Of a stretch of DNA of 64,000 nt, positions 29,516 through 50,319 are shown in pieces. Below the pieces are notes generated by a model that was not told the DNA's origin, did no database searches, and saw only the letters and a program-made list of their open reading frames with translations. A program made the translations under genes and the position numbers. Within the stretch, counting starts at the first letter, position 1. Each line of letters opens with the position of its first letter. This DNA is from Nitrospirota bacterium (lineage in GTDB: Bacteria; Nitrospirota; UBA9217): assembly GCA_029858565.1 (NCBI GenBank), contig JAOUEV010000004.1:62001-126000 (forward strand). The letters are read 5' to 3'.

Positions 29516-29548
29516 CAGTATTATCACTGCAGGGTGGAACTGATCATT

Positions 29549-30384: not shown

Positions 30385-30864
30385 ATGCAAACGCAGGAAC
30401 AGGAAGTTCATCTGCTCGATTACTGGAGGGTGCTGGTCAAGCGACGCCAGATCGCATTGACGTTCTTTGCTATCCTAGTGGGGCTCGTGGCGCTGTATTC
30501 GATCATCGCAACGCCGATCTACCGGGGCACTACCCAGATCCTTCTAGAGCTGGAGAAAAATCCCGTTATGACATTTACCGAGGGCGGCGGGGCCTTCATC
30601 CAGATGCGGGAGTCCTCTGAGTTCTATAAGACACAGATCGAGATACTCGGAAGCCGCTCCTTCGGTGACCGTGTGGTACGGAAGCTCCAACTGGACAAGA
30701 ACCCCTATTTCCTTGCACGCAAGGAAAAGATCGCTGGAGGCATCCTAGAATGGATTGCAAAGCATGCTAGGTCCTTTTTCTCCGGAAGGGAAAAGCGCAG
30801 AATCCTATTCAACTGGCAAGTGTCCGTGAAGAAGCCGATGCGTCGATCACCACCGACATCCTGA
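30385..30864 (+). CDS. N-terminal part of a Wzc-like chain-length/tyrosine kinase protein (frameshifted)
   Basis: The 159 codons encode a Wzz domain: a cytosolic start, a membrane helix (about 25-45) and a periplasmic region with ILLELEKNP. From about residue 133 the reading becomes unlike the family, and it stops at 30864. The correct continuation (KAQNPIQLASVREE and onward) is in another frame and runs straight into the gene at 30870. One missing base near 30777-30792 explains this. The intact protein would be about 740 residues. Confidence 0.85.
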   Translation: MQTQEQEVHLLDYWRVLVKRRQIALTFFAILVGLVALYSIIATPIYRGTTQILLELEKNPVMTFTEGGGAFIQMRESSEFYKTQIEILGSRSFGDRVVRKLQLDKNPYFLARKEKIAGGILEWIAKHARSFFSGREKRRILFNWQVSVKKPMRRSPPTS

Positions 30865-30869
30865 AAAAT

Positions 30870-32618: not shown

Positions 32619-33397
32619 TCGACCTGCACTGTCATATCCTTCCGGGCATTGACGACGGTCCGGCGACGATGGGCGAATCGCTGGATATGTGCCGGATCGC
32701 TTACGAGGATGGCATCCGGACGATCGTCGCGACGCCTCACTTCATGCGGGGGGAGCAGGAGTATCTTCCGTCGCGGGTCAGGGCGGAGTTCGAGGCCCTG
32801 GTGACGGAAGTGTGTAGGCAGGGGATCGGGATCGATCTCCTGCTGGGGGCTGACGTCGCGGTCACGCCGGAAACGCCGCTCTATCTGCGGCAGGTCCCGC
32901 AGCTGACACTGAACGGCACGGGCAGGTATTTCCTTGCCGAACTCCCCCATGAAGCCGTTCCTCTGAACTGGGACCGGTTCCTGCTTGCCATGGCACAGCA
33001 GGGGATGGTTCCGATCCTGACGCACCCTGAGCGGCATCGATGGTTCCTGAAGCGTCCTGACGCTTTATACGATTTTGTCGGCGGCGGAGGCCTGGTCCAG
33101 GTGACAGCGATGAGCCTTACCGGAGAGAACGGGGAAGAGGTGCGCCGATTCTGCTGCTCCCTGCTGCAACGGGCCCTGGCACATGTGATCGCGACGGATG
33201 CCCATGCGCCGGCAGGCCGAGCCCCGCTCCTTGCAAAGGCGGTGGATGCTGCCGCACGGGTGATCGGCGCGGAAGAAGCGTATCGCATGGCATCGGAGAC
33301 GCCCCGAAGGATCCTGCGGGGGGAGATGCTGGACCTGGCGGGGCCGAGGAGAGTGCAGGAAAGGGTTCCATGGTACAGGAGACTGCTCGGCGCGTGA
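32615..33397 (+). CDS. CpsB/YwqE-type tyrosine-protein phosphatase (PHP family)
   Basis: A 260-residue metal-dependent phosphatase. The PHP motif DLHCHILPGIDDGP (His5, His7) and later TPHF, LTHPER and ATDAHA segments supply the metal ligands. It removes phosphate from the tyrosine tail of the Wzc-like kinase, closing the control cycle. The ATG overlaps the kinase stop (ATGA), which suggests translational coupling. The normal length is about 250. Confidence 0.93.
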   Translation: MIDLHCHILPGIDDGPATMGESLDMCRIAYEDGIRTIVATPHFMRGEQEYLPSRVRAEFEALVTEVCRQGIGIDLLLGADVAVTPETPLYLRQVPQLTLNGTGRYFLAELPHEAVPLNWDRFLLAMAQQGMVPILTHPERHRWFLKRPDALYDFVGGGGLVQVTAMSLTGENGEEVRRFCCSLLQRALAHVIATDAHAPAGRAPLLAKAVDAAARVIGAEEAYRMASETPRRILRGEMLDLAGPRRVQERVPWYRRLLGA

Positions 33398-34827
33398 GTG
33401 AGAAGGACGGCCGGACCGGGTATGACCGGATCATCGAAGGCGGGGTGCAGGTCCTCGTCGTGGCAACGCCATTGGCCTTCGGCACGGTCCATGACTGGTC
33501 GTCGTCGGTCATGGAGATCATTGTATTCATAGTCTTCGGCGCATGGTCCGTGAAGTCGGGACTACGGTTCGGTGCGGGAATGTCGTGGCCGCTGCTGGCG
33601 CTCCTTACCGCTGGACTGACCCTTCCGCTTCTCCAGATCGTCCCGCTTCCCGCCGGGATCGTCCGGCTGGTCTCGCCGTCCCTCGTAGACCTGTATACGC
33701 AGGTTGGCGCGCCGGGGCAGGAGGGGTGGATGCCGCTTAGCATGAATACCCGCGCCACGATCGAGGAATGGTTCCGGATCACGGCGTACGTCCTGATCTT
33801 CATCGTTGTCGCCAGTCATTATACGACGACTGGGCAGGTGAAGAAGCTCTGCAGGACGATCGTGGCGGTTGGAGCGTTCCTCACGGTCTTCGCGGCACTG
33901 CAATTCGCAACCTGGAACGGCAAGCTGTACTGGGTCTTCCCGGTCCGGGAGGAGCTTGCAGCGGCCGGGCACCGGTTCTGGGGGCCGTACATTAACCGGA
34001 ACCACTTTGCAGGCTATCTGGCGATGGTCGTGCCGATAGCGTATGCACTGTTTCTCCATAGGATCGCCGTGAAGCAGCAGGCTTCGTCGCGACAGTCACA
34101 GGGCTTTACGCAGCAGCTGCTGATACTTACCTCCAGCGTTTCGCTGACCGTGATGGGGCTGTCATCGATCGCGATGATCGCGGCCATATTCGGGAGCTTC
34201 TCCCGGGGAGGCATCGTCGCTTTTACCGCTGGTACGGCATGCTTTTCCTTGATGGTCCTGTCGCGCCGATCGACGCGGAGTGTGGCAGGAGCGTTCGCGC
34301 CGATTGCTGCGATTCTCCTGGTCAGCATCATGGCCCTCCTGTGGCCCCGCGTGGAGCACCGATTCGAAGCGATCACGGACGTGGAGAGGATAAAACGTTT
34401 CGATATCTGGAAGGACGCCGGCGGCATACTGTATGATTTCCCGATCCTCGGGACCGGCTTGGGAACGTTCCGGTTCGCCTATCCCCGTTACCAGACGGAG
34501 AACACGGCGCTGCAGTTCGATCATGCGGAAAATGACTATCTGGAACTCGCCACGGAGCTCGGGAGCGCGGGTGTTCTGCTAGCGCTGGGAACAGCAGCCG
34601 CGTATCTGGGGGCGGTGTATCCGGCATGGAGACAGCGGAAGAACAGGTTCGTCCTGCTTCTGACAGCTGGTGGGATCGCTTCCTGCTGTGCTCTGGCTGT
34701 CCACGGCGCAGTGGACTTCAATTTCCGGATCCCGGCGAACGCTCTTCTCTTCAGTATCATCGCCGGTATCACGATAGCGACCGCCAGGAACGTGCGCAGC
34801 GCGAAAAGGCGTGATCATGCGGTCTGA
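33370..34827 (+). CDS. O-antigen ligase/polymerase family protein (Wzy_C domain)
   Basis: A 485-residue protein with about 12 membrane helices. The large periplasmic loop and the Wzy_C signature region (FWGPYINRNHFAGYLAM and later GTGLGTFRFAYPRYQ, with D-HAENDYLELATELG) are those of the O-antigen ligase/polymerase superfamily. It may polymerise repeat units or ligate the polymer. A second, different polymerase-like protein is encoded at 41438. It overlaps the phosphatase gene by 28 bp. Confidence 0.88.
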   Translation: MVQETARRVSEKDGRTGYDRIIEGGVQVLVVATPLAFGTVHDWSSSVMEIIVFIVFGAWSVKSGLRFGAGMSWPLLALLTAGLTLPLLQIVPLPAGIVRLVSPSLVDLYTQVGAPGQEGWMPLSMNTRATIEEWFRITAYVLIFIVVASHYTTTGQVKKLCRTIVAVGAFLTVFAALQFATWNGKLYWVFPVREELAAAGHRFWGPYINRNHFAGYLAMVVPIAYALFLHRIAVKQQASSRQSQGFTQQLLILTSSVSLTVMGLSSIAMIAAIFGSFSRGGIVAFTAGTACFSLMVLSRRSTRSVAGAFAPIAAILLVSIMALLWPRVEHRFEAITDVERIKRFDIWKDAGGILYDFPILGTGLGTFRFAYPRYQTENTALQFDHAENDYLELATELGSAGVLLALGTAAAYLGAVYPAWRQRKNRFVLLLTAGGIASCCALAVHGAVDFNFRIPANALLFSIIAGITIATARNVRSAKRRDHAV

Positions 34828-35662
34828 CAAGAACAGCGCAGCAGGGAAAGGCCACCGACTGCTCTTCCTTGCCGGTGTCCTGTGCATTATCGCCTCTCTC
34901 TGCGTTTTCCCTGTCCGTGTGCTGGTGGGCGCTCTCTTTTTTGCGAATGCCCAGGCCCTGATGCAGACCGGCGCCGGAACGCTCGCGGATAGTCCGACCA
35001 GTGAAGGTCCTTTCGCGGGAGATCCCGTGGAGATCCAACGGCAGTTGGAGAGCGCTTTAGCGGCGGACCCCGGGCAGGCGCGGTATTCCAAGGCGCTGGC
35101 GGACCTACACTTCAAGCTCGGTAAATGGTCGGAGGTCATGGCCGTGGTCTCCGGCTCCGAGGTCATACACGGTTTCGACGCGACGAAGCACTACGCAAAA
35201 GTACAGGAACATCTGCGCCATGCCATTGAGCTGGAACCGTTCAATGCGGGGCATTATCTGGCGTTCGGCATGCTGCAGCTTCAGAACGGAGAAACGGCGG
35301 CAGCACAGCACTTCGCAACAGCAAATGCCCTGCGGCCGGTGGACGTTGTGCAGCGGTACATTATTGCAAGAGGATACCTTCTCGCCCACTTGAATGATCA
35401 CGCTCTTGCTGAAGCGCGTGCCATGGCATCGAATGATGACAGCTATCGCCTTCCGGAAGGGGCCGTACGCAGGGACTTTGCAAAGACAGCGGCCGATGAA
35501 ACTGAGTCGTCCGTGAAGAACAGTTATCTCTATAGGGCGCTCGAGATCGCCTGGCGCGCGTCAGACAGGGACCGGATGGTAGTGCGAAGCATCGTCCCGC
35601 TGAACGATGAGGCGCTGGAGGTTGCCGACCGCTTCTTCGAGGATAAGGGGCTGGATGAGTAG
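34817..35662 (+). CDS. Membrane-anchored TPR-like protein
   Basis: A 281-residue protein with one N-terminal helix (about 15-40) followed by helical repeats resembling TPRs ([21 protein letters not shown], then [22 protein letters not shown]). It is probably anchored to the inner membrane and faces the periplasm. TPR partners often accompany Wzy-type proteins, sometimes as separated parts of Wzy_C-TPR fusions; its position directly after the Wzy_C gene fits this. Alternative start GTG at 34811. Confidence 0.72.
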
Positions 35663-36350
35663 GCAACGGATTGGGAGAGAAGTCTTGAACGAAACGCCAG
35701 GGAAAGGCACCAATACGGTCTGGCATCATGCCACGGTCCAGCGCAAGAACCGCGAACAGCTGAACGGCCACCGCAGCGTGGCATTGTGGTTCACCGGCCT
35801 GTCCGGCGCCGGCAAGTCCACGCTGGCCCACGCCGTGGAAGAGCGGCTGCATGCGCTCTGGTGCCGGACCTACGTCTTTGACGGCGATAACGTCCGGCAG
35901 GGCCTGTGTTCGGATTTGGGCTTCACGAAGGACGACCGCAGCGAGAACATCCGAAGAATCGGGGAAATGGCCAGACTGTTCGTGGATGCAGGCATCATCG
36001 TCATGGCCGCGTTCATTTCCCCTTTCCGCGCGGACCGGGTGCGTGTCCGGGGCAGCATCGGGAATGACGACTTCATCGAGATCTACTGCAAGTGTCCGGT
36101 CGAAATATGCGAGCAGCGCGACATCAAGGGACACTACCGGCGCGCCCGGAGCGGCGAGATCAAGGAGTTCACGGGCATCTCGTCGCCCTACGAAGAGCCG
36201 GTGGCGCCGGAACTGGTGCTGGAGACGGGAACGCGGTCCCTGGAGGAATGCGTGGATGCTGTCATGGCCTATCTGGTCAGCCGGGGAATCGTCACCAGGG
36301 CATTCCCGGAGGACGTCCGGCGCAACGGGGAACAGGAGGATGCGGGATGA
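35655..36350 (+). CDS. cysC: Adenylyl-sulfate (APS) kinase CysC within the EPS locus
   Basis: A 231-residue kinase that phosphorylates APS to PAPS, the sulfate donor for sulfotransferases. The P-loop GLSGAGKS is at residues 48-55, followed by the DGDNVR substrate motif, [12 protein letters not shown] and FISPFRADR. All expected catalytic motifs are present, without a fused ATP sulfurylase. The ATG overlaps the previous stop by 8 bp, and its own stop overlaps the sqdB-type gene (ATGA). In this setting its job is probably PAPS supply for the sulfotransferase at 44496 rather than assimilation. A TTG near 35684 is a possible later start. Confidence 0.95.
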
Positions 36351-37561
36351 GCAAGGGGAAGGTGGTGATCCTGGGAGGGGACGGGTTTTGCGGCTGGCCG
36401 ACATCGCTCTACCTGTCCCACCATGGGTACGACGTGACGATCGTCGACAATCTCAGCAGGCGGAACATCGACAACGAGCTCGAGGCGTATTCGCTCACGC
36501 CGATCCAGCCCATGGGGACGCGGCTCGCGGTCTGGACGGAGCGGACGGGCAGAACGATCTCCTTTGTGAACATCAACGTGGCGGAGAACTACCATCGCCT
36601 CCTGACGCTGCTCATGGAATTGCAGCCCGTAGCCGTGGTGCATTTTGCGGAGCAGCGCGCAGCGCCCTACTCCATGAAGAGCGCCTACCACAAACGGTAT
36701 ACGGTCAATAATAATATCAACGCCACCCATAATCTGCTCTGCGCCATAGTGGAGTCCGGCCTCGATACCCATGTGGTGCACCTAGGGACTATGGGGGTCT
36801 ATGGGTATGGCACAGCGGGAATGGAGATCCCCGAGGGATACCTGAAGGTTCTTGTCCGGGCCGAGGGGCTCGAGAAGGAACTGGAGATCCTTTATCCAGC
36901 AAACCCCGGCAGCATCTATCACATGACCAAGACGCAAGACGCGCTGCTGTTCTATTACTACAACAAGAACGACGGCTTGCGGATCACGGACCTGCACCAA
37001 GGGATCGTCTGGGGGACCAACACGGACGAGACGCTTCTAGACGAGCGGCTGATCAACCGCTTCGATTACGACGGTGATTACGGGACCGTCCTGAACAGGT
37101 TCCTGATGCAGGCGGCGATCGGCCACCCCCTGACCGTACACGGAATGGGGGGGCAGACCAGGGCCTTCATCCATATCCGGGACACGGTGAAGTGTATCAA
37201 ACTTGCCATCGAGAACCCTCCGGCGAAGTTCGAGCGGGTGCAGATATTCAACCAGGCAACGGAGACCCACACGGTGCAGGTCCTGGCGGAAAAGATCGCG
37301 GCCAAGACGGGGGCGAGGATCGTGCAGCTCGCCAATCCTCGTATCGAGGCTCCGGAGAACGACCTGCGGGTGTCCAACAAGAAGTTCCTGAATCTGGGGT
37401 TGAACCCGGTAACGCTCAATGACGGCCTGCTCGACGAGGTCATGCAGATTGCGTTCAAGTACAAGGACCGCTGCGACCGGTCGAAGATCCTGTGTACGTC
37501 GAAGTGGCGGGCGGATATCGATCTGGAGAACATCGTCAGTATCGACCAGAACGATAGGTGA
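36347..37561 (+). CDS. sqdB: UDP-sulfoquinovose synthase (SQD1/SqdB family)
   Basis: A 404-residue short-chain dehydrogenase/epimerase-type enzyme that joins sulfite to UDP-glucose to give UDP-sulfoquinovose. Family-specific features run the whole length: NAD loop GGDGFCGW (10-17), [12 protein letters not shown] (99-110), catalytic Thr148 in LGTMGVYG, Tyr191/Lys195 in YHMTK, then [15 protein letters not shown] and [19 protein letters not shown]. These match plant SQD1 and archaeal Agl3 far better than ordinary UDP-glucose epimerases. The gene is translationally coupled to cysC. The sugar is expected to go into the exported polymer or a glycolipid; no sulfolipid synthase (sqdD/sqdX) is present here. 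Confidence 0.92.
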
Positions 37562-37652
37562 GCGAAGGTCTGGTCGCGCCGACATCGCGAGAGAATATTC
37601 CCTTGAGGCTGATGGCCCAACGTGGTCCGGCTTCGTATGCTGAGGTTGAAGA

Positions 37653-38126
37653 ATGATGCAAGTGGTCAGGTTGTTGTTCCGATTGAGATTGCGTATTCAT
37701 AGGATATTCTGGAGGATGCGTCTCGCAAGCCTTGGAAAAGGATCCACGATCTATCCGTATGTGGTTATCCACGGGGCGCAACATGTCGAGATCGGCAGCC
37801 GTGTCTCAATCGCGGAATTCGTGCATGTCTGGGGAGGTGGAAAAGTAATCATTGGCGATAATTCGATCATTGCTTCTCATGCTGCGATTACTTCAGTTAC
37901 CCATGACATCAAGGCCTCCGTCTTGTATCGTGATACGGTCAAGAAGATGCCGGTGAAGATAGGGAAAAATGTATGGATAGGATCAGGGGCGGTCATCATG
38001 CCGGGAGTGAACATCGGCGACAATTCGGTCGTGGGCGCTGGAGCTGTTGTGGACAGAGATGTTGAGCCAAGCACGGTTGTTGTCGGCATCCCGGCTAGAT
38101 TGTTGAGGAAGATTGCTGATGCATAG
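37653..38126 (+). CDS. Hexapeptide-repeat (left-handed beta-helix) acyltransferase
   Basis: A 157-residue protein with hexapeptide repeats (VEIGSRVSIAEFVHV, VIIGDNSIIASHAAI, VKIGKNVWIGSGAVIMPGVNIGDNSVVGAGAVV) ending GIPARLLRKI. This is the WcaF/NodL-type O-acetyltransferase fold, which uses acetyl-CoA. It probably O-acetylates the repeat unit. The histidine in SVTHDI is placed as the catalytic base. Base composition is visibly more AT-rich than the preceding genes. It overlaps the next gene by 8 bp. Confidence 0.88.
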   Translation: MMQVVRLLFRLRLRIHRIFWRMRLASLGKGSTIYPYVVIHGAQHVEIGSRVSIAEFVHVWGGGKVIIGDNSIIASHAAITSVTHDIKASVLYRDTVKKMPVKIGKNVWIGSGAVIMPGVNIGDNSVVGAGAVVDRDVEPSTVVVGIPARLLRKIADA

Positions 38127-39051
38127 GGCAGTTGGTATGGTGGCTTGTCCTTCGTGCGGACAGAGGACTGCAGAAAGAATAGGGGCTATTTATAGTACTG
38201 CTGGTCAGAAAGACGCTGGTGGTAAATCGATCGACGACGAAGCCGCATTATGGCGTTGTCGGGAATGTTTTTTATTGTTTCGGCATCCGGCTCTGCCACA
38301 GGAAGAGTTGAACAGCTTCTATGTAACGGGGTCTCGGCCGGGATGGAGCTATCAGCCAGCTTTGCGCACAGATTGGCAGACCGCAAAACATCTTATCCAT
38401 TCTGTTCTGGGTCGGGGAACGGTCGTGGACATCGGTTGTTTTGACGGAACCTTTTTAGCACAACTCGGGTCATCGTATGAGAAATACGGCGTCGAACCGA
38501 ATGAAAAAGCGCGATCGGCAGCCCGGGAGAAGGGGATCCATATCCTTGCCCGTGATGTTGAAGAGTTCTGCTCGTTGGGGAGACAATACGATATTATTGT
38601 GGCTTTCGATGTTGTCGAACACTTTGCCGATCCCCTTGGCCTGCTTGTGAAGCTCGAACGATCCCTTGCCCCTCGGGGCTTGATCATCCTGTCTTCTGGA
38701 AATGCAGACGCTCTGCCCTGGAGATTGATGAAAGGTCGTTATTGGTATTGCTCGTTGCCGGACCACGTCTCGTTTATCAGTCCTCCGTGGGTTCGGCAGG
38801 CAGCTCGCAAATCAAATCTAACGGTCATTAGCATGACACGGATCAGCCATGCAATCACGCGTTTTAGGTATCTGCAGGTTGTTGCGGGATTCATGATGAG
38901 CGCGATCTACCTGATATCTCCCCATCTGATACGCATGCTGAGAAAGATCAAAAAGGCCGTCACCGCTGGCCGCATTGCGATGGATGAGTTCGCTCCGCCG
39001 GTCTGGAGAGGAGTAAAGGATCATCTGCTAGTTGTTTGCGAGAAAAAGTGA
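38119..39051 (+). CDS. SAM-dependent methyltransferase with N-terminal Cys pairs
   Basis: A 310-residue protein. The N-terminus has two CPSC/CREC pairs that could bind zinc, as in many sugar C- or O-methyltransferases. The Methyltransf_23-type core follows with SAM motif I VVDIGCFDGTFLAQLG (near 98) and later VAFDVVEHFADP. A C-terminal extension contains a hydrophobic segment. The ATG at 38119 follows GAGGAA and overlaps the acyltransferase stop. It probably methylates a sugar of the repeat unit. Confidence 0.85.
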   Translation: MHRAVGMVACPSCGQRTAERIGAIYSTAGQKDAGGKSIDDEAALWRCRECFLLFRHPALPQEELNSFYVTGSRPGWSYQPALRTDWQTAKHLIHSVLGRGTVVDIGCFDGTFLAQLGSSYEKYGVEPNEKARSAAREKGIHILARDVEEFCSLGRQYDIIVAFDVVEHFADPLGLLVKLERSLAPRGLIILSSGNADALPWRLMKGRYWYCSLPDHVSFISPPWVRQAARKSNLTVISMTRISHAITRFRYLQVVAGFMMSAIYLISPHLIRMLRKIKKAVTAGRIAMDEFAPPVWRGVKDHLLVVCEKK

Positions 39052-39218
39052 GGAGGGTGTGACGGCTCGAAGTTGACTCGTGCTGTGGTGGCGGCTATGC
39101 TGCGCGTGAAGGGCTAATCGATTATCGCGGTTTTCGATGCGGATCTCCGGTCCTGAAGGACGCCATCGTATAATCTAGCGTATAATTCGGCATGTTTCTA
39201 GAAAGGTGAGAGTTTGTT

Positions 39219-40748
39219 GTGGAAGACAAGCAGGCTGTGACCCAAAATGCTTTCTATGCAGTGCTGCAGGTCGTGCTGTCGGGCGTCATGCTCTTCCTTT
39301 TTTATCGATATCTGTATTCGGTAATCGGTATTGAACAGGTCGGGATCTGGTCGCTGATCCTGGCGATGACGTCACTTTCGAGTATCGCCAACCTGGGTTT
39401 TGGTGGAAGTCTTGTGAAGTATGTTGCTCAGTATCACGCCAGGGGAGATCAGGATGCGATCAATGATGTTGTGGCGACAGCCGTTATCACCGTAGGCATC
39501 GCGGTGGCAACGGTTTTAATCCTGGCATACCCGTTCGCTGAAGCTCTGGTCGGAATGGTTGTTCAACGACAGTATGCGGAAAGAGCGGCTTCGCTGCTGC
39601 CCTACGCTATCGTATCTTTGTGGATCGGATCTCTCGGAAACATGTATGCTGCGGTACTGGAGGGCTATCATCTGGCTTATCTGAAGAGTGTGATATTTTT
39701 GGCGGGGCAGGCACTGAACCTTCTTTTGAGCATGCTGATGGTGTCACACCATGGTCTCTTCGGGCTTGCGTATGCACAGATCATACAAGCAGCATTCGTG
39801 GTTGCTGCAACCATGATCGTTCTCAAAACAAAGGTGCCGAGCATGAGGGTCGTTCCTGGTATGTGGAAAAAAGAACGCTATCGGGAGATGAAGAATTATG
39901 GTTTTAACGTGCAGGTGAATTCTGTTGCGATCATGCTGTATGATCCGATCACGAAGGCGCTCCTGTCGAAATATGGTGATATTTCGATCGTTGGCTTCTT
40001 TGAGATGGCGAATAGGACAGTTCTCCTGTTCCGAGCCGTGCTGGTCAACGCCAACCGGGTCTTGGTGCCGACGATCTCACGCGCGATGGAAAGCGTCAAC
40101 GTCCCCCTGAATAAAATTTATAGTCTGTCCTATGAATTGATCTTGTATCTATCGGTGCCGATATTTGCCGGCCTTATTGCTTTCGCGCCCTCTGTCGCCC
40201 ATCTGTGGACCGGAGCATATAATGACCGGCTTTCAAGCATGATCATGATCCTCTCTCTGGGATGGTTCGTGAATATTCTTGCCGGTCCCGCATATTTTAT
40301 GAATATGGGAACGGGAGATCTGTCGATGAACACGATTAGCCATGTGGTCATTGGACTCGGGAATCTCCTGTTGGGACTTGCGGCCGGAGTGCTCCTCGGC
40401 GGACAATACATAGTGTGGACGTGGACATTGTCGCTCGGCGCAGGAAGCCTGATGATCCCGATCAGCTATCAGCGAAAGAACAGCCTCCCTCTATCGTCAC
40501 TGCTGCCAGCTACGAGCAGGATGCTCGCACTTTCCTGTACAGTCGGTGCCGTATTGTCGTTGCTGGTATATCATGGATATCATGAAAGCCTGCCGTTCTT
40601 CCAGTTGCTGGCAGGAACGGTTCTTGTGTATTGCGCGATCATCTTTCCTTCTCTTTGGAAGCATCCTGCGCGCAGCAGGCTTTTTGAGATGACGGGTCAC
40701 TTGCGTGGCTTGAGTGCAGGCAAAGATCAAAATCATGAAGATGCGTAA
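39219..40748 (+). CDS. Oligosaccharide flippase (Wzx, MATE/MVF superfamily)
   Basis: A 509-residue protein with about 14 membrane helices in the RfbX/Wzx pattern (FYAVLQVVLSGVMLFLFYRYL, then GIEQVGIWSLILAMTSL, and TVLLFRAVLVNANRVLVP). It flips undecaprenyl-linked repeat units across the inner membrane. It starts at GTG 39219, which follows GAAAGGTGAG. The 167-bp gap before it contains two TATAAT boxes (39169 and 39181) but no convincing -35, so an internal promoter is possible. Confidence 0.9.
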   Translation: MEDKQAVTQNAFYAVLQVVLSGVMLFLFYRYLYSVIGIEQVGIWSLILAMTSLSSIANLGFGGSLVKYVAQYHARGDQDAINDVVATAVITVGIAVATVLILAYPFAEALVGMVVQRQYAERAASLLPYAIVSLWIGSLGNMYAAVLEGYHLAYLKSVIFLAGQALNLLLSMLMVSHHGLFGLAYAQIIQAAFVVAATMIVLKTKVPSMRVVPGMWKKERYREMKNYGFNVQVNSVAIMLYDPITKALLSKYGDISIVGFFEMANRTVLLFRAVLVNANRVLVPTISRAMESVNVPLNKIYSLSYELILYLSVPIFAGLIAFAPSVAHLWTGAYNDRLSSMIMILSLGWFVNILAGPAYFMNMGTGDLSMNTISHVVIGLGNLLLGLAAGVLLGGQYIVWTWTLSLGAGSLMIPISYQRKNSLPLSSLLPATSRMLALSCTVGAVLSLLVYHGYHESLPFFQLLAGTVLVYCAIIFPSLWKHPARSRLFEMTGHLRGLSAGKDQNHEDA

Positions 40749-41436
40749 GCTGCTTAAAAACATCACGCATTCCTTTGGCATCGATGTGCGCAGGCATGCC
40801 GGGAACAAATATGTCTGGCTTCAATCGCAGAACATCAGGACCGTGCTCGATATCGGTGCAAACGAGGGACAGTTTGCCCTCGAGCTTCGTCAGTATTTGC
40901 CTGATGCGGCCATCCATTCATTTGAGCCGGTTCGAGATGCATTCTGTCTCTTGGAAAAGAATCTGAAAGGTAAGCGAGGTCATTTTCTCTACAATTACGC
41001 ACTGGGAGAGGCGGCTGAGGCCATCCCCATCCGGAGGAACACATTTTCGCCTGCCAGCTCGTTCTTGAGGTCAAGCGAGCTGTCGAAAGCTGCTTACCCT
41101 TTCCTCGAAGAGATCGCAAAGGAAGTCGTAGATGTCAGAAAACTTGATGATGTCTATCCGTTGCTTTATCAAGATCGCGAGCTTATGATAAAAATGGATG
41201 TCCAAGGGTACGAGGATAGGGTCGTTCGAGGAGGCCATAGCGTTTTTCAACAGGCGAAGATCGTCATTTCTGAGGTCTGCTATCAACCACTCTATGAGGG
41301 GCAGCCCCTGTTCGCTGATCTGTATGAGCTGTTCCTGGGGATGGGGTACCACTACTGCGGAAATATCGAGATGACCCAACATAGAAGAACGGGAATGCCT
41401 CTCTTTGCCGATGCGGTTTTTATGAGGGGAGATTAG
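40735..41436 (+). CDS. FkbM-family methyltransferase
   Basis: A 233-residue SAM-dependent enzyme. Motif I is TVLDIGANEGQFALELRQ (near 38), followed by IHSFEPVRDAFCLLEKN and the FkbM-specific IKMDVQGYEDRVVRGG. Such enzymes O-methylate sugars in capsules and antibiotics. The ATG at 40735 lies within the last codons of the flippase gene, so the two are co-translated. Confidence 0.9.
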   Translation: MKMRKLLKNITHSFGIDVRRHAGNKYVWLQSQNIRTVLDIGANEGQFALELRQYLPDAAIHSFEPVRDAFCLLEKNLKGKRGHFLYNYALGEAAEAIPIRRNTFSPASSFLRSSELSKAAYPFLEEIAKEVVDVRKLDDVYPLLYQDRELMIKMDVQGYEDRVVRGGHSVFQQAKIVISEVCYQPLYEGQPLFADLYELFLGMGYHYCGNIEMTQHRRTGMPLFADAVFMRGD

Positions 41437-41437
41437 T

Positions 41438-42742
41438 ATGCGGGCATCGCTGTATCCCCCCCTCCTGCTGATATCGTTGAGTTATCTTGTCCCTCGCCTG
41501 TCTCACGTAGGCGGCGCTATCCCTATGATTATCCAGGCTGGTATCGTGTTGGTAGTGTTCTATTATTCGCTCGTGACGCTATTTCTTCGGTCTTCCCGCT
41601 ACGCACCGCGGACCGGCAAAGGGCTGTATCGTAGCCAAGTCAAGTATATCGTATTGTTTACCGTTTTTGTAGTCCTGAGCATTATCGCCATGCTGAAGGG
41701 TCTTGAACGCGAATACGGTCTGCGGTATGTCATTGGAGACACGTACAAGTTCCTGATACCGCCAGTTTGCATTTATTATTTTTACCTTGTAATACGAAAA
41801 AGCGCGGAATACGAGGATATCTTGTATGCTTATTATTGGCTCGCAGTGGTCATGCAGGTGCTCATGCTTGTGCCGTATATGGCAGGAATTCTGAAAACAA
41901 ATGACAGGATATTTTCTGTCAATAATTTGCCCCTTGTGCTGATGCTGGGTTACTTTTTCAGGGAACGGAGCAGGCGTGTTCGTCCTGCACAATGGCTGAT
42001 GCTGTTCACCATTCCTGTATATATCTATTTCACCCAGTCGCTTTCACTGTTTGTATCTCTCAGCGTGGTGCCTCTCTTGACGATTGTGCTCTACCGATAT
42101 AGTGGGAGGCGGCTGGCCCTCTTTCTTGTGGGCATTCTAATTTTTTCATGCACGATGATATATGTTATGCTCTATCGGGGCGATTTCATCGGAGAGATTC
42201 TCCCGAGAAAGTATGCGGATTATTACCTCTCAGGAAAGTTCGTGGGATTGCAGAACGCGGCGTCAACAGAGGCGAAACTGGAGATGATCGCCGGAAGCAG
42301 GTTTGCTGAACCGAAAGGGATTGTCGGGGAAATATCGGATGGTAAGCTGATGACCATGCTTGTCGGTGCGGGGATGGGAAGTACGTTTACCTCGACATCG
42401 GTGACCGGGCTGAAGAGGACATGGACAGGCGAGGATCACTTCGTGCATGCTGGGGTGACGGAATCTCTGCTGCGGACGGGAGTGCTGGGAGCGGTTCTTT
42501 ACGTGCTCATTTCCCTCCTCTTTGTAGGGGTAGGACTGCAGATGCGTAGATATAATATCATCGCGGCGTTGAGCGCTTCAAAAGTGTTGACGGATTTCCT
42601 GTTCATGATCGTGACGACATGGCTGGGGAATGAATTTATGGTATTCTTCCTTGTAGCTTACTTGCTCAGTTTGAGCAGGGAACAGTGGGAGGTCCGGCGC
42701 GCTGAAGATGTTTTGCAGCCGACGGTTGGTATGGCCATATGA
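41438..42742 (+). CDS. O-antigen polymerase-like membrane protein (Wzy)
   Basis: A 434-residue protein with about 11 membrane helices and a long periplasmic loop around 230-350. Sequence conservation in this family is low, so the call rests on topology, length and position among Wzx, transferase and methyltransferase genes. The loop ends in GAGMGSTFTSTSVTG and HAGVTESLLRTG, like other Wzy/O-antigen ligase-type proteins. It is probably the repeat-unit polymerase, leaving the Wzy_C protein at 33370 for ligation or a parallel role. The start lies one base after the FkbM stop. Confidence 0.72.
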   Translation: MRASLYPPLLLISLSYLVPRLSHVGGAIPMIIQAGIVLVVFYYSLVTLFLRSSRYAPRTGKGLYRSQVKYIVLFTVFVVLSIIAMLKGLEREYGLRYVIGDTYKFLIPPVCIYYFYLVIRKSAEYEDILYAYYWLAVVMQVLMLVPYMAGILKTNDRIFSVNNLPLVLMLGYFFRERSRRVRPAQWLMLFTIPVYIYFTQSLSLFVSLSVVPLLTIVLYRYSGRRLALFLVGILIFSCTMIYVMLYRGDFIGEILPRKYADYYLSGKFVGLQNAASTEAKLEMIAGSRFAEPKGIVGEISDGKLMTMLVGAGMGSTFTSTSVTGLKRTWTGEDHFVHAGVTESLLRTGVLGAVLYVLISLLFVGVGLQMRRYNIIAALSASKVLTDFLFMIVTTWLGNEFMVFFLVAYLLSLSREQWEVRRAEDVLQPTVGMAI

Positions 42743-43542
42743 TGCCGGCGAGGCTTAAAGTGAGTGTCATTACGGTCTGCCTCAATGCCGTACGAGAGCT
42801 CCCGGAGACCTTGCGAAGCGTCAGGGAACAGACATATCCCCTCATGGAATCGATCGTCATTGACGGAGGGTCAGAGGACGGAACGCTCGAGTATCTTCAG
42901 TCGCTAAATCCGCAGCCGGACGTCCTGATATCAGAGCCTGATCACGGGATCTACGATGCCATGAATAAGGGCATCGTTGCTGCGACAGGCGACTACATCA
43001 TATTCATGAATGCCGGTGACTCCTTCCGGCATCCTTCGGTGCTGAAGGACGTGTTTGGCGACGAGTTTGTGGTCTCTCAGAGGCCGAAAATCATTTCCGG
43101 ACGGGTGCAGTTCTCTTTGAAGGGGGAGCTGCTGGACTTGCATCGCCCTCGAACAGTAGGGCAGGAAGGACCGGGATTGCCCCATCAGGCAACGTTCATG
43201 GCTGCTGATCTGCTGAAGAACAACCGATTTGACACGCATTACCGATTCGCAGGGGATTACGAGCTCTGGCGCAGGTTAAAGAAGCAAGGGCTGTTCTTGG
43301 TCCATTATATTGACCGGACCGTTTCCGTTTTTTCACTTGGAGGAGTTTCGACATCTGCGAAGAACGATCCTATGCGCTATCTGGAGCGGGCTTTCGTGGA
43401 TTCCCGGTATGCCGGCAGGTTCTCGCTATGGCAGATGATCGTGTTGGCCGGCAAGACGGTGATACGGCGCATGCTGTACACGATGATGCCTCATAGGTTA
43501 TATCATATCCTCCTTCGAAAGAGCTGGATATTCCGGTCATGA
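42739..43542 (+). CDS. Glycosyltransferase family 2
   Basis: A 267-residue GT-A transferase. It has the N-terminal nucleotide-sugar fold (KVSVITVCLNAVRELPETLRSV), the acidic IDGGSEDGT segment, EPDHGIYDAMNKGI and DYIIFMNAGD, where the metal-binding Asp usually sits. This DHGIYDAMNKG subtype resembles WcaE/WcaA-like colanic acid transferases. No membrane segment is present; the C-terminal part is basic. It overlaps the Wzy-like gene by 4 bp. Confidence 0.9.
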   Translation: MMPARLKVSVITVCLNAVRELPETLRSVREQTYPLMESIVIDGGSEDGTLEYLQSLNPQPDVLISEPDHGIYDAMNKGIVAATGDYIIFMNAGDSFRHPSVLKDVFGDEFVVSQRPKIISGRVQFSLKGELLDLHRPRTVGQEGPGLPHQATFMAADLLKNNRFDTHYRFAGDYELWRRLKKQGLFLVHYIDRTVSVFSLGGVSTSAKNDPMRYLERAFVDSRYAGRFSLWQMIVLAGKTVIRRMLYTMMPHRLYHILLRKSWIFRS

Positions 43543-44444
43543 GCGTTCAGGAGGGCGGGATCAGATTGCGGCAGGAAGACCGGCAAACTCATGGGGGCGG
43601 ATGGCGCAGGATATTCGCATTCATTCTGATTAAACTGACTGTTGTTATTCTTTGTTCGAACGGCCTGGCCATCGCAAAGCCGGGGAGCAATGACCGCCTC
43701 GTCCTGATGTGGCAGGTCCAGAACACCGTCTCCGACGAGGAGCTGGTGGTCCTGAAGCGTAAGGGCGTCAATCTCGTGCAGTCCTTTCCGCTGATAACCT
43801 GGCGAGACGCCGAGATCCGGTCCTATCTCGACCGGATGCATAAGTTCGGATTTGGCGTCGTCATGACGGTTGTGTCCATGTCCGAAAAAGGGCCGTCGGG
43901 TTGGTCCATCAGGGAATCAGCACTGGTGGGCTTCATCCGGAAATGGCGGACCCATCCTGCCGTGTTCGCATGGCATACTTTTGATGAGCCGAGCAATCGG
44001 GGCGTGGCCGAAGTGCCGAAAGAGCTCCAGGAGCGCGTTTATGGACTGGTGAAGTCTATCGATCCAGACCATCCGGTCATGATCTCGTGGAACGGTACCT
44101 CTTTCTGGCACTACCGGTTCTTTTCAGAGCAGGCGTTCGATGTGCTGGATCTGCACGCTCATATCACTGATACGGTCGGACGCCGGCAGGCGGCGCTGAT
44201 AAACGAGTTCCGCAAACGGAGAGCCAGGGATTACCCAGTCATTGTGACGATAGCGACGGTCTATCGTCCCGGGAACAAGCCGCTTCCGGAAGATGCCGTC
44301 ATTCAGCAATATCGCTACTTCTTCGGTGAGAACGTTGTGACACGGAACATCGGCTTTTACGGCTGGGACCTGTCGAGGAATATCGGTATCCGCAAGGACA
44401 CGAGTCTCCTGTCGCAGTTTCTGGACCTGGAGCTGACAAAGTAG
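43539..44444 (+). CDS. Exported TIM-barrel glycoside-hydrolase-like protein, unknown specificity
   Basis: A 301-residue protein. An N-terminal anchor (about 25-45) is followed by a fold that reads as a glycosidase-type TIM barrel: LVLMWQVQN at strand 1, KGVNLVQSFPLITW, FGFGVVMTVVS, then FAWHTFDEPSNRG, where the Glu of DEP sits where GH clans place the acid/base, and HPVMISWNGTSFWHY and LDLHAHI. I do not recognise the family. The chain ends 51 bp before the sulfotransferase gene. It could trim or edit the polymer in the periplasm, or be a polymer-binding relic. Confidence 0.65.
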   Translation: MSVQEGGIRLRQEDRQTHGGGWRRIFAFILIKLTVVILCSNGLAIAKPGSNDRLVLMWQVQNTVSDEELVVLKRKGVNLVQSFPLITWRDAEIRSYLDRMHKFGFGVVMTVVSMSEKGPSGWSIRESALVGFIRKWRTHPAVFAWHTFDEPSNRGVAEVPKELQERVYGLVKSIDPDHPVMISWNGTSFWHYRFFSEQAFDVLDLHAHITDTVGRRQAALINEFRKRRARDYPVIVTIATVYRPGNKPLPEDAVIQQYRYFFGENVVTRNIGFYGWDLSRNIGIRKDTSLLSQFLDLELTK

Positions 44445-44495
44445 GGAACAATCGGATGCTTTTCCCGGCAAGGAACCGGGAAGGGGGGCGGAGAA

Positions 44496-45329
44496 ATGCT
44501 TCCGGATTTTATCTGTGTCGGGCCCGGCAGAGCGGGTACGTCGTGGCTGTATGAGATCCTGCGCGAACATCCGGGGATCTGCATGGCAAGGAACATCAAA
44601 GAAACGCAGTATTTCGACCGGCACTTTGCTAAGGGTGTCGGATGGTACGGTGAGTTCTTTCAAGATTGTCCGGGGGCCGCGGTCAAGGGCGAGATATCGA
44701 ACCGCTATGTGTTCGATCCGCGTGTCGCGGAACGCATTTCCTCGCTTCTGCCCCAGTGCAAGATCATCATTTGTTTCCGCAATCCCTATGAGAGGATCCA
44801 GTCTGTCTACTCGTTCAAGATCCGGGAGGGGGTGCTTACCTGCGGGTTCCTTGAAGCGATACAGCGAGACCCCCGGTTGATTGAGGAGAATCGCTACTTC
44901 ACGGTTGTGGAGCCCTATTATCGCCTCTTTGGCAGGGACCACATCTTCCCGTTGTTCTTCGAGGATATCTCCGGGAGACCTGAACAGTTATGCCGGAACC
45001 TCTTCACGTTCCTGGGCGTGGACGCGACCGCCCAGCCTCCGAGCATGCGCGAGAAGATCAACCGCGCTATTATCCCGCGTTTGCCGGGGATCGCGCCGCT
45101 GACAAAGGGCACGGCGAGAGTGCTCCGGACCATGGGCATGCATCGGATGCTTACCTGGGCGAAACGCTCGGAGTGGCTGAAGCAGCTTCTCTTCAAGGAG
45201 CATGGATATCATGAGGAGAACCTTCTGACACAGGAAGCGAGAGCGCTCATCGATCCGGTGGTGGGACCTGAGATCGACCGGCTGCAGGTGCTGATAGACA
45301 AGGATCTGTCTCACTGGAAGCGTTCTTGA
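44496..45329 (+). CDS. PAPS-dependent sulfotransferase
   Basis: A 277-residue sulfotransferase-domain protein. The 5'-phosphosulfate loop PGRAGTSWL (10-18) and the 3'-phosphate motif (CFRNPYERIQSVYSF, Arg95 and Ser103) are both present, as in heparan-type and Stf0/NodH-type enzymes. It transfers sulfate from PAPS to a hydroxyl or amine, here most likely a sugar of the repeat unit. It has no membrane segment and is probably cytosolic, acting before flipping. The PAPS source is probably the cysC product at 35655. The start follows GGGGCGGAGAA. Confidence 0.9.
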   Translation: MLPDFICVGPGRAGTSWLYEILREHPGICMARNIKETQYFDRHFAKGVGWYGEFFQDCPGAAVKGEISNRYVFDPRVAERISSLLPQCKIIICFRNPYERIQSVYSFKIREGVLTCGFLEAIQRDPRLIEENRYFTVVEPYYRLFGRDHIFPLFFEDISGRPEQLCRNLFTFLGVDATAQPPSMREKINRAIIPRLPGIAPLTKGTARVLRTMGMHRMLTWAKRSEWLKQLLFKEHGYHEENLLTQEARALIDPVVGPEIDRLQVLIDKDLSHWKRS

Positions 45330-45348
45330 ACAACCTTTGGACCATTCT

Positions 45349-46536
45349 ATGCATATGCTCTCGTTGACAGCGGTATACGTTGTTTTTACAGCTCTCGCGC
45401 TCATCTTATACACGTGGCTCGGTTACCCGATCCTCCTGAAAGTGCTGTTGACCTTCAGGAAGAAGACAACATCCGGCAAGGGCAGTGAGCAAAGAGGCGG
45501 CGCATTTCCTTCGGTCACGGTGATACTGCCAGTGTATAATGCGTCCAGCAGGATCGAGGCAAAGCTGAGGAACACTCTGTTGCTCGACTACCCTGCGGAT
45601 AAGCTTGATGTGATCGTGGTCTCCGACGGGTCGTGTGATGATACGGAAGATAAGATGCGGGCTCTGACCAGCGATTTCGTGCGGCTGGTCGTGCTCAACA
45701 GGAATCAAGGGAAGAGCAGCGCCCAGAACCGGGCTGTCCGGGAGGCACGGGGAGAGCTGGTCCTGTTCACGGACGTTGATTCTGAGTTGGACCGGGAGTA
45801 TCTGCAACGCATTGTCCCGGCGTTCGCAGACACCCAGGTGGCAGGTGCTGGAGGCATGGCAGTCCTGCGGGTGGACGGAGGCCATGTTTCCAGGTCGCTG
45901 GGAGCCTATTTACGATTGGAGCATTTCCTGCGCTGTGCTGAATCCGAGCTTGGCATGCTCCATACACTGCCGGGATGGGGATTTGTCGTCAGAAAGAGCG
46001 AGTTCGTTCCGCTTGCTTCCGATACCGGCGACGATATGATCATCCCGCTCGATCTGGCCGTGCGGAAAAAAAGGTGTGTTCTTGTGCCGGAAGCGGTTGT
46101 CGCCGATGCAATGCCGTCGAGCATCCGCGGTGAGTTCCGCGCTCGCCGGAGGATCACGCTGCGAAACCTGACCGGCATCATGCGCCGTCGGATGCTCTTG
46201 AATCCTTTTGCCTTCCCGAGGATGGCGTTCGCACTCTGGTCGCATAAGATATTGCGCTGGCTTACTCCGGTCTTCTTGATCCTGCTGCTCCTGAGCACGG
46301 CATTGTGGGAGATTTCTGCGGGTGATCCTCTTGCGGCGGTTTTGCTTGCTGGTCAACTTGTTTTCTATGCAGCGGGCGGCCTTGGTATCCTGCTTGCGCT
46401 GAAAGACATCCGTGTTCCGGTCATCGGTTTCTTAGCATCGTTCCTCCTGTTCAATATTGGATTCCTTTCAGGGTTGATAAGCTATCTGAAAGGGGAAAGG
46501 GTATTTTCCTACACGAACCATGGCGACACGGTTTAG
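45349..46536 (+). CDS. Membrane glycosyltransferase family 2 (processive-like)
   Basis: A 395-residue protein. A first membrane helix (about 5-28) precedes a GT2 domain with VILPVYNAS, VVSDGSCDDT, LFTDVDSEL and the QxxRW-like region (RARRRITLRN); three C-terminal helices follow (about 300-390). The domain order matches cellulose/hyaluronan synthase-like transferases, but the short length suggests single-sugar transfer. It starts at 45349 or at the Met at 45355. Its last 17 bp overlap the phosphoglycosyltransferase gene. Confidence 0.9.
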   Translation: MHMLSLTAVYVVFTALALILYTWLGYPILLKVLLTFRKKTTSGKGSEQRGGAFPSVTVILPVYNASSRIEAKLRNTLLLDYPADKLDVIVVSDGSCDDTEDKMRALTSDFVRLVVLNRNQGKSSAQNRAVREARGELVLFTDVDSELDREYLQRIVPAFADTQVAGAGGMAVLRVDGGHVSRSLGAYLRLEHFLRCAESELGMLHTLPGWGFVVRKSEFVPLASDTGDDMIIPLDLAVRKKRCVLVPEAVVADAMPSSIRGEFRARRRITLRNLTGIMRRRMLLNPFAFPRMAFALWSHKILRWLTPVFLILLLLSTALWEISAGDPLAAVLLAGQLVFYAAGGLGILLALKDIRVPVIGFLASFLLFNIGFLSGLISYLKGERVFSYTNHGDTV

Positions 46537-47896
46537 CAGCTACAGCAGAGCATTTCTGTCTCTGGGGGACGCGGCGATCATCCTCCTCTCAGCCTATGTC
46601 GCGTTCGCGCTGAGGTGGTGGACCTACGTGGACGTCATGGAGTACCGCGCCGGCGCGACCATCCTCTTCGTTCTCATTTACGGCATCAGCTTCGCCATTC
46701 TGGACATACATAATTATACTGAATCGTTTCGGTCGACCGCCTACCTGACGCATTTCATCATTACGGTGCTGATGGCTACGGGGGTGGTGACGGTGCTGTT
46801 CTACGTTATGCCCCTCTGGAAGTTCGGGAGAGGGGTGCTGTTGATCAACATGGCAGTCGTCACCATCCTGGTCTATTCCTGGCGCCTGCTTTTCGAGGTC
46901 CTCTTCAAGTTCGCGCGGAAACCCCTGCGCATGATCGTTATCGGCTCCGGATTCTCGGGTAAGCATATCTACGACATCCTGCGGAAACATCCGGATGCCT
47001 TCACGGTCATCGGGTTTCTCGATGATGATCCCGGGCGTTCCGGGACCGGGATCGGAGAGCACCGAGTCCTGGGAGGAAGCGGCATGCTCATGGACCTGAC
47101 TGAGCGGCGGGCGATGGACGCTGTGGTCATTGCGATCACCGGCAACAAGACACCCCGGTTGCTCACTGCCCTCGTCGACGCGAAAATGAAAGGCGTCGAG
47201 GTCTATGATATGCCGGACCTCTACGAGGAGATCACCGGCAAGCTGCCGGCCGATCATATCGGCGACGCCTGGATGGCCTACGCGCGGTTCAAGGGGGTCA
47301 GGAGGAACCTCTACACCCTCCATCTCAAGCGCATCATGGACATCCTGCAGTCCGTGCTGGGACTCATCCTGTCCCTGCCGATCGCCATCATCGCGGCGAT
47401 CGCGATCAAGCTCGATTCCCGCGGTCCGGTCCTCTACCAGCAGGCGAGAATGGGTAAGAACGAGTGTATTTTCACGTTGTGCAAGTTCCGCTCGATGCGG
47501 TCCGATGCCGAAGACGGCGCCGCCGTCTGGGCCTCGCCCGACGATCCCCGGATCACGAGAGTGGGAATGTTCCTCCGCAAGACCCGGATCGATGAGATCC
47601 CCCAGATGTGGAACGTCCTCAAGGGAGAAATGAGCTTCATCGGACCCCGGCCGGAACGACCCGAGTTCATCGCGCAGCTCAAGAAGGAAGTGCCGTTCTA
47701 TTCTTTCCGGCACGCGGTCCAGCCGGGCATCACCGGCTGGGCGCAGGTCAACTACCGCTACGGCGCTTCGAAGGAAGACGCGCTGGAAAAGCTGCACTAC
47801 GACCTTTACTATATCAAGAACCTCAGTTTCACTCTCGACATGCACGTGCTGCTCAAGACGATCCGTGTCGTCCTGTTCGGAAAAGGGGCACGGTAA
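46520..47896 (+). CDS. Undecaprenyl-phosphate sugar phosphotransferase (WbaP/WcaJ family)
   Basis: A 458-residue initiating enzyme that moves a sugar-1-phosphate, usually glucose or galactose, onto undecaprenyl phosphate. Four N-terminal helices, a nucleotide-fold CoA_binding_3 domain (VIGSGFSGKHIYDIL near 140) and a membrane re-entrant helix precede the conserved C-terminal transferase with KFRSMRSDAE, DEIPQMWNVLKGEMSFIGPRPE and YSFRHAVQPGITGWAQV. It starts repeat-unit synthesis for the whole locus and is its last gene. Confidence 0.95.
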   Translation: MATRFSSYSRAFLSLGDAAIILLSAYVAFALRWWTYVDVMEYRAGATILFVLIYGISFAILDIHNYTESFRSTAYLTHFIITVLMATGVVTVLFYVMPLWKFGRGVLLINMAVVTILVYSWRLLFEVLFKFARKPLRMIVIGSGFSGKHIYDILRKHPDAFTVIGFLDDDPGRSGTGIGEHRVLGGSGMLMDLTERRAMDAVVIAITGNKTPRLLTALVDAKMKGVEVYDMPDLYEEITGKLPADHIGDAWMAYARFKGVRRNLYTLHLKRIMDILQSVLGLILSLPIAIIAAIAIKLDSRGPVLYQQARMGKNECIFTLCKFRSMRSDAEDGAAVWASPDDPRITRVGMFLRKTRIDEIPQMWNVLKGEMSFIGPRPERPEFIAQLKKEVPFYSFRHAVQPGITGWAQVNYRYGASKEDALEKLHYDLYYIKNLSFTLDMHVLLKTIRVVLFGKGAR

Positions 47897-49376: not shown

Positions 49377-49449
49377 CGGTATGTTCCGCCCCCCCTGTGG
49401 AAATGAACAGTCCTGTGCGAGGATAACAGAAAGAACACGTCCTTTTTCC

Positions 49450-50319
49450 ATGAATAATGCTCTCTCCATAGATCTGGAAGACTGGTTCTGTGTCTATAAT
49501 ATGAGCCGGTTCATCGACAGGAGCAGCTGGGACAGCTGTGAACTGCGTGTTAGACGGAATACAGAGCGACTGCTGGCGTTGCTTGAACGGCGCCGGGTGA
49601 AGGCGACCTTCTTTGTCCTCGGCTGGATCGCCGAACGGGTGCCGGATTTGATCTCGAGCATTGAACAGCAAGGGCACGAGATCGCAACGCACGGCTATTC
49701 CCATGAGCTGATCACGAACATGACGCCAGCTGCATTCGAATCGGACCTCAAGAGGGCCCTTGAGGTCACGCGGCAATGTGTCAGGCAGCATATTCACGGC
49801 TTCCGGGCGCCATCGTTCAGTATCACACAAAGGACGAAATGGGCATTGCCTATCCTGGAACAGAACGGGATCACCTATGATTCATCAATTTACCCTATCG
49901 GTTTCCATCCCGACTATGGGATCGGTGACAGCCCACTTGGAATCTATGCGCATAGCCCTTCGTTGGTCGAAGTTCCCCTCAGTTGTGCAGAGGTCCTGGG
50001 CAGGAGGATACCCTGTAGCGGCGGCGGATACTTTCGCCTGCTCCCATACGCGGCAACGAAGTTCCTGATGCGGTTGTGCAACAAACAGGGCAGGCCGGTG
50101 ATCTTTTACCTCCATCCCTGGGAAATAGACCCCGATCAACCACGGGTCAACCTGACAGCATCGAAACGTCTGCGTCATTATCTTAATCTGCACAGAACGA
50201 TGGATCGCCTCGAGCGTCTTTTGCGAGACCTTCCGTTTACTACAATAAGGGAGATCCTTCATGAACAAAGAGCTGCAGGAACAGAAGGAGTTCTGGGACC
50301 GGGAACTGGATCAGTTTGA
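49450..50319 (+). CDS. Polysaccharide deacetylase, DUF3473 (XrtA/PEP-CTERM-locus) type
   Basis: A 289-residue NodB-fold enzyme. It begins with the type-specific ALSIDLEDWF, where the metal-binding Asp lies, followed by FFVLGWIAERVPDLI, HEIATHGYSHE (metal His) and RAPSFSIT. The C-terminal DUF3473 part has HPWEIDPDQPR. Such deacetylases accompany exopolysaccharide loci, often with exosortase XrtA; no exosortase is present here. The start at 49450 gives the family-like N-terminus. Its last 59 bp overlap the methyltransferase gene. Confidence 0.9.
   Translation: MNNALSIDLEDWFCVYNMSRFIDRSSWDSCELRVRRNTERLLALLERRRVKATFFVLGWIAERVPDLISSIEQQGHEIATHGYSHELITNMTPAAFESDLKRALEVTRQCVRQHIHGFRAPSFSITQRTKWALPILEQNGITYDSSIYPIGFHPDYGIGDSPLGIYAHSPSLVEVPLSCAEVLGRRIPCSGGGYFRLLPYAATKFLMRLCNKQGRPVIFYLHPWEIDPDQPRVNLTASKRLRHYLNLHRTMDRLERLLRDLPFTTIREILHEQRAAGTEGVLGPGTGSV

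Follow-up and report, generated by a model that had tools for sequence, protein, structure and literature searches.

The stretch of DNA analyzed here, referred to as the window, comprises 64,000 nucleotides from a Nitrospirota bacterium (assembly GCA_029858565.1, contig JAOUEV010000004.1, positions 62,001 to 126,000) and contains a polysaccharide export operon in which the gene for a predicted UDP-sulfoquinovose (UDP-SQ) synthase, sqdB, lies together with genes for an adenosine 5′-phosphosulfate (APS) kinase and a sulfotransferase dependent on 3′-phosphoadenosine 5′-phosphosulfate (PAPS). The source genome, assembled at 3.92 Mb, is judged complete from its marker count and was searched family by family. 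The locus extends from ~29.5 to 47.9 kb of the window as a single row of genes, all on the + strand, and over these 18 kb most neighbors overlap or lie within 8 bases of each other, the largest gap being 167 bases. In order, the genes encode the following:

29534–30349, + strand, Wza-type outer-membrane polysaccharide export protein (Poly_export, SLBB; Pfam PF02563/PF10531; 58% identical to the syntenic gene in G006, a genome of the same family)
30385–32618, + strand, Wzc-type co-polymerase/tyrosine autokinase in two open reading frames, 30385–30864 and 30870–32618 (PF13807, PF13614, TIGR01007)
32615–33397, + strand, CpsB/CapC phosphatase (PF19567, 175.9 bits)
33370–34827, + strand, O-antigen ligase/polymerase-like membrane protein, Wzy_C (PF04932, 72.3 bits)
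34811–35662, + strand, tetratricopeptide repeat (TPR) protein, the last export front-end gene kept in G006 (PF14559; synteny with locus L170)
35655–36350, + strand, APS kinase (PAPS-making), first gene of the variable cassette (TIGR00455, 262.6 bits, cut-off 138.7)
36347–37561, + strand, predicted UDP-SQ synthase of the SqdB subgroup, 404 residues (PDB match, tree, residues, and model)
37653–38126, + strand, hexapeptide-repeat acyltransferase (PF00132)
38113–39051, + strand, S-adenosylmethionine-dependent methyltransferase, Methyltransf_23 (PF13489)
39219–40748, + strand, Wzx flippase (PF01943)
40714–41436, + strand, FkbM-family methyltransferase (TIGR01444, 78.1 bits, cut-off 37.7)
41438–42742, + strand, hydrophobic membrane protein in the position of the Wzy polymerase, a putative assignment from position and evident hydrophobicity
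42739–43542, + strand, glycosyltransferase of family 2 (GT2a; WcaE-like), candidate sulfoquinovosyltransferase (PF00535; 54% identical to the GT2 directly after sqdB in Mariprofundus, locus L028)
43539–44444, + strand, TIM-barrel glycoside hydrolase-like protein, probably exported (Foldseek matches to GH158/GH2 from a modest model, predicted local distance difference test [pLDDT] 66; homologue of 48–50% in locus L021)
44496–45329, + strand, PAPS-dependent sulfotransferase (PF00685, 56.7 bits)
45337–46536, + strand, second family 2 glycosyltransferase (GT2b) and second candidate sulfoquinovosyltransferase (PF00535/PF13641; 51% homologue at the matching place in L021)
46520–47896, + strand, initiating polyprenyl-phosphate sugar-1-phosphate transferase (PF02397, 230 bits; TIGR03013, 443.7 bits, cut-off 393)

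A preliminary description of this DNA had placed the locus at 35655–45329; the three sulfur-related genes that it named do lie there, but the locus is larger. Its APS kinase, UDP-SQ synthase, and sulfotransferase are borne out in position and common direction by the profiles and PDB matches, and the overlap that it noted is the 4-base ATGA joining the stop of the APS kinase gene to the start of sqdB. The Wzx, two GT2 enzymes, and initiating transferase that it listed also match their profiles. There are two Wzy-like proteins: Wzy_C is recognized by PF04932, and the putative 41438–42742 protein found no match in Pfam or NCBIfam. The flippase, polymerase, co-polymerase (frameshifted), outer-membrane export protein, and initiating transferase are gathered in one cluster, as in sulfated Wzx/Wzy exopolysaccharide loci. 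A promoter scan returned no more sites than shuffled sequences.

Sequence and model comparisons identify the product of 36347–37561 as a predicted UDP-SQ synthase. In a phmmer search of the PDB its best match was Arabidopsis SQD1 (1i24/1qrr) with an E value of 6e-97, the next being 1.5e-10 or worse. It is 42% identical to SQD1 and 61–63% identical to SqdB of Sinorhizobium meliloti, the function of which is genetically proven. When the protein was modeled by AlphaFold with 26 relatives (pLDDT 84.5), Foldseek likewise placed SQD1 on top (template-modeling score 0.89–0.92; 1qrr E value 1.6e-42, next family 7.9e-19), with plain epimerases and dehydratases fitting far less well. In a phylogenetic tree, which was of a quick kind with long outgroup branches and was used for its coarse grouping alone, the window synthase falls in a five-member Nitrospirota set (support 99) nested in the SqdB clade, and it shares an 88-member clade with S. 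meliloti SqdB (SH-aLRT support 94). Next to the SqdB clade, plant and cyanobacterial SQD1 form a group of their own, composed of SQD1 and plant-type cyanobacterial SqdB, and the plain epimerases, which the preliminary description had weighed as an alternative grouping, lie outside. A GTDB genome scan found the synthase clade at 68–82% identity in Alphaproteobacteria, Cyanobacteriota, Bacillota, Actinomycetota, Deinococcota, Chloroflexota, and others.

The residues of the active site agree with this placement. UDP-SQ synthases carry a TMG...YxxxK fingerprint (PMC8987622), and in Agl3 of Sulfolobus acidocaldarius the replacement of His95, Arg101, Met145, Tyr182, or Lys186 by Ala abolishes activity, while the E147A variant keeps 12% (PMC4388408). 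The window synthase retains the fingerprint and the equivalents of all five essential residues, which are conserved in all 86 sequences of the window's residue pattern, with Val at position 147 throughout. The earlier statement that all key motifs are present is therefore right for the fingerprint and the five residues and wrong for the Glu of TMGEY, since the window synthase, like every other member of the SqdB clade, has Val at that position. Because of this replacement the enzyme is assigned to the SqdB subgroup and not to SQD1/Agl3, the family first proposed; what stands of that proposal is the UDP-SQ synthase identity and a fold that best matches SQD1. The Sinorhizobium and Rhodobacter SqdB proteins belong to the same subgroup, and that of Sinorhizobium has the same TMGVY...YHxxK active site.

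The sulfate arm of the operon is equally compact. The APS kinase is the only one in the genome above the TIGR00455 cut-off; a second APS-kinase-like gene, on C56, was excluded at 125 bits. Similarly, a genome search with PF00685/PF13469 returned one sulfotransferase, that of the operon, whose best PDB match is the bacterial sulfotransferase 3rnl, followed by heparan 3-O-sulfotransferases. Both genes lie within ~8.2 kb of the synthase gene in a 3.9-Mb genome, and the naive chance of finding both within 10 kb of it is ~3e-5. The operon thus holds a PAPS synthesis gene and a sulfotransferase gene, a combination described as a hallmark of sulfated polysaccharide (PMC11641403). Because the sulfur substrate of UDP-SQ synthase is sulfite, and because the genome search yielded no PAPS reductase, the most likely role of the APS kinase is to supply the sulfotransferase and not the synthase; PAPS made by the operon would have no evident use except sulfation.

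Sulfite for the synthase would come from elsewhere in the genome. The genome search detected neither CysH (PAPS reductase) nor CysD, and a PF01507 match was rejected as CysH, being GMP synthase by position and sequence. The genome does encode Sat (301.8 bits) and AprA (911.8 bits, cut-off 641.8), both on one contig, and sulfite can therefore come from an APS reductase of the dissimilatory kind. Elsewhere in the clade, a CysH-type APS/PAPS reductase lies within the locus, mostly adjoining sqdB, in 12 of 85 loci. CysH and SqdB are even encoded by a single continuous open frame in a metagenome-assembled genome (MAG) of a proteobacterium (L024:8240-11215) and in a Nocardioidaceae MAG (L080:9083-11206), and such a fusion is probably a bifunctional enzyme making both sulfite and UDP-sulfoquinovose, with separate translation possible in L024, where a ribosome-binding-like GGGAG precedes an internal ATG. 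With its Wzc, PF02397 transferase, and sulfotransferase, L024 is a polysaccharide locus in its own right.

Comparison with related loci separates a common export apparatus from the genes expected to define the product. Synteny between G006 and the window covers the genes for Wza, Wzc, CpsB, Wzy_C, and TPR (30–74% identity), but a different gene set follows TPR in G006; thus, the APS kinase–sqdB pair appears to open an exchangeable, product-defining cassette behind a common export front end. A genome of the same genus (G001) has neither sqdB nor a matching Wzy_C. In the nearest locus, L021 (SqdB 82% identical), the genes for CpsB, Wzy_C, and TPR precede those for SqdB, Wzx, a sulfotransferase, and homologues of the TIM-barrel protein (50%) and GT2b (51%). 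The Mariprofundus locus contains Wzx, FkbM, SqdB, a GT2 54% identical to GT2a, and a sulfotransferase, and SqdB also accompanies a sulfotransferase in L023, from a Deltaproteobacteria MAG, and in L024. The neighborhood comparison that the preliminary description had suggested hence finds the SqdB–sulfotransferase pair in four further genomes, each time within a polysaccharide locus (L021, L028, L023, and L024), in one of which (L024) CysH is fused to SqdB. Among the 85 clade loci, a sulfotransferase is present in 5 of the 8 with an export marker versus 0 of the 77 without (Fisher P = 2e-6), a comparison biased by a sulfotransferase profile made from three of the five positives, by the unequal length and relatedness of the loci, and by the counting of the window itself.

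Collectively, these data suggest that the locus encodes an exopolysaccharide or capsule made by the Wzx/Wzy route and containing both sulfoquinovose, with its C–S bond, and sulfate esters (C–O–S), a reading to which we give a probability of about 0.62. ATP sulfurylase, encoded elsewhere, would form APS, which an AprA-type APS reductase, also encoded elsewhere, would convert to sulfite. SqdB (36347) would then join sulfite to UDP-glucose to yield UDP-sulfoquinovose, and one of the two GT2 enzymes would add sulfoquinovose to a lipid-linked repeat unit begun by the 46520 transferase. The APS kinase (35655) would produce PAPS, from which the sulfotransferase (44496) would place a sulfate ester on the repeat unit, and Wzx, Wzy, Wzc, and Wza would flip, polymerize, and export the polymer. 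It is the colocation of the genes that leads us to infer both sulfur groups on one chain.

Parts of this design have precedents. Sulfated capsules of marine bacteria are known (PMC11641403; PMC11766843), as are a sulfated Wzx/Wzy exopolysaccharide, synechan (PMC8205485), and exported sulfoquinovose glycans in archaea (PMC4388408). The synechan xss cluster of Synechocystis 6803 resembles the window operon in grouping Wzx, Wzy, and co-polymerase genes with sulfotransferases; however, it is cyanobacterial, has two sulfotransferases, and includes no UDP-SQ synthase among its listed genes (PMC8205485). The capsule cluster of Vibrio sp. KMM 8419, whose product has a proven sulfated structure, also combines PAPS synthesis genes with sulfotransferases, but it uses ABC-transporter export and glucose and rhamnose precursors, with no sulfoquinovose (PMC11641403). 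The Agl3 pathway of S. acidocaldarius likewise provides UDP-sulfoquinovose for an exported surface glycan and not for a lipid, yet it is archaeal, serves an N-glycan, employs an Agl3-subgroup enzyme with TMGEY, and has no PAPS sulfotransferase reported in the cited literature (PMC4388408). Our literature search, which left most subscription journals outside, turned up no description of a sulfoquinovose-containing polymer exported by a bacterium, and the literature searched held no chemical evidence for the product of any of these loci. More tentatively, and at slightly under even odds, the window operon may represent an undescribed class of bacterial surface polymer, found in Nitrospirota and in two or more further lineages, whose chain would both contain sulfoquinovose, in the backbone or as a branch, and bear sulfate esters. 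Sulfite would be drawn in this genome from an APS reductase of the dissimilatory type and in another lineage from a CysH–SqdB fusion.

Few organosulfur compounds on Earth are as abundant as sulfoquinovose, which is nearly always considered as the head group of a lipid or, in archaea, as an N-glycan sugar. The operon predicts a doubly sulfur-modified slime or capsule, which, if real, would mean that biofilms and sediments contain an unrecorded sulfonate pool, that sulfoquinovose-degrading microbes have a new substrate, and that the highly acidic glycans include a new class. Cultured producers could be sought by a simple genomic marker, the pairing of sqdB with a sulfotransferase gene in an export locus.

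Several observations weigh against a doubly modified exported polymer. By comparison with the Wzc of locus L114, wzc changes frame near 30850 in the assembly; this may be an assembly error or a real inactivation, in which case export may be impaired. The Wzc homologue in G006 is intact (737 residues) and 62–74% identical to the split protein of the window. In L021 the sulfotransferase, 69/50% identical to that of the window, is frameshifted, and no APS kinase was found in that genome assembly. Nor do the relatives converge on a single candidate sulfoquinovosyltransferase, as GT2a has a close relative in the Mariprofundus locus with none found in L021, and GT2b shows the reverse. Finally, the equivalent of Agl3 Glu147 is Val, and UDP-sulfoquinovose might be used by a sulfolipid synthase of an unknown kind.

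The last of these points belongs to a reading in which UDP-sulfoquinovose feeds a membrane sulfolipid through an unrecognized glycosyltransferase, the gene having entered the operon by an accident of rearrangement and the polymer being merely sulfated. Sulfolipid-type contexts are indeed common in the wider clade, where SqdB is SqdX-linked in Chloroflexota, Bacillota, and Deinococcota; S. meliloti sqdB has a glycosyltransferase gene, sqdD, directly downstream, and sqdB of Marinovum is followed by a "Glycogenin-1" gene and an epimerase-like gene in a layout resembling sqdBDC. In Rhodobacter the sqdBDC layout, in which SqdD and SqdC follow, is needed for sulfolipid (PMC11346425), whereas the window gene sits in a polysaccharide export operon, overlapping the APS kinase gene within a tightly packed gene row. 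The synthase's own subclade, from other Nitrospirota and desulfobacterial relatives, also lies among polysaccharide genes and not beside SqdX. The S. meliloti SqdD query, which finds Marinovum SqdD at 65%, had no match in the window genome. An SqdX query taken from beside a cyanobacterial sqdB found full-length proteins in Moorena (75%), Lyngbya (69%), and Jeotgalibacillus (49%), and in the window genome it gave three partial matches of 29–37% to ordinary GT4 enzymes; no SqdX orthologue was found there, in Mariprofundus, or in four other members of the phylum that were tested. The preliminary description had favored a polymer over a lipid and had pointed to a sulfolipid synthase elsewhere in the genome as one of two concerns; with working controls, the searches for SqdX and SqdD support the polymer on genomic grounds and make the sulfolipid improbable.

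Alternatively, the sulfur sugars could be carried on lipopolysaccharide O-chains or secreted glycoproteins instead of a free exopolysaccharide or capsule, a possibility that seems unlikely and would alter the carrier but not the chemistry. The Wzy_C protein (33370) belongs to the O-antigen ligase family, and the initiating transferase and a polysaccharide deacetylase encoded at 49381–50319 score above cut-off for models of the XrtA/PEP-CTERM exosortase system (TIGR03013 and TIGR03006, respectively), which is associated with exported proteins. In addition, archaeal sulfoquinovose sits on N-glycans (PMC4388408). However, the Wza and Wzc homologues are of the capsule and exopolysaccharide export type, which O-antigen does not need. 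An enzyme acting as a UDP-glucose dehydratase or epimerase that makes no use of sulfite, leaving a polymer with sulfate esters alone, appears highly unlikely. Agl3 without sulfite does behave as a 5,6-dehydratase (PMC8987622), and both the Val at position 147 and a score of 332.4 on NCBIfam NF041015, below the cut-off of 575, might seem to point in this direction. Neither discriminates: S. meliloti SqdB scores 332.1 and shares TMGVY, so some members of the enzyme class fall below this cut-off and Val is clade-wide, and both arguments were rejected. Moreover, the adjacency and fusion of CysH in the clade and the presence of AprA in the window genome point to sulfite use.

Some further observations concern the surroundings of these genes. 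The TIM-barrel protein may perhaps be a hydrolase for the polymer of its own locus. In L021, the region between TPR and sqdB (L021:5231-9788) contains, by eye, several PIN-domain toxin-like genes. In halophilic Bacillaceae and relatives (L043, L056, and L065), an SqdX-like GT4 gene adjoins sqdB or lies a few kb off, which predicts sulfolipid in salt-loving Gram-positive bacteria. The SqdB-subgroup enzyme is the only UDP-SQ synthase found in Moorena (L086), Lyngbya confervoides (L027), and Xenococcus (L049), where no plant-type enzyme was found, with an SqdX orthologue confirmed in the first two; Tildeniella has both types. Other Nitrospirota encode SQD-like proteins of ~40% identity (L104, L106–L114, L116, and L117) that form a separate clade with TMGEY (TLGEY in one), several of them in polysaccharide loci. 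They were not counted as a second UDP-SQ example, as nearly all have Pro at the position of the essential Arg101. The SQD-like gene of L114 lies in an export locus with an APS kinase gene (63%) close by.

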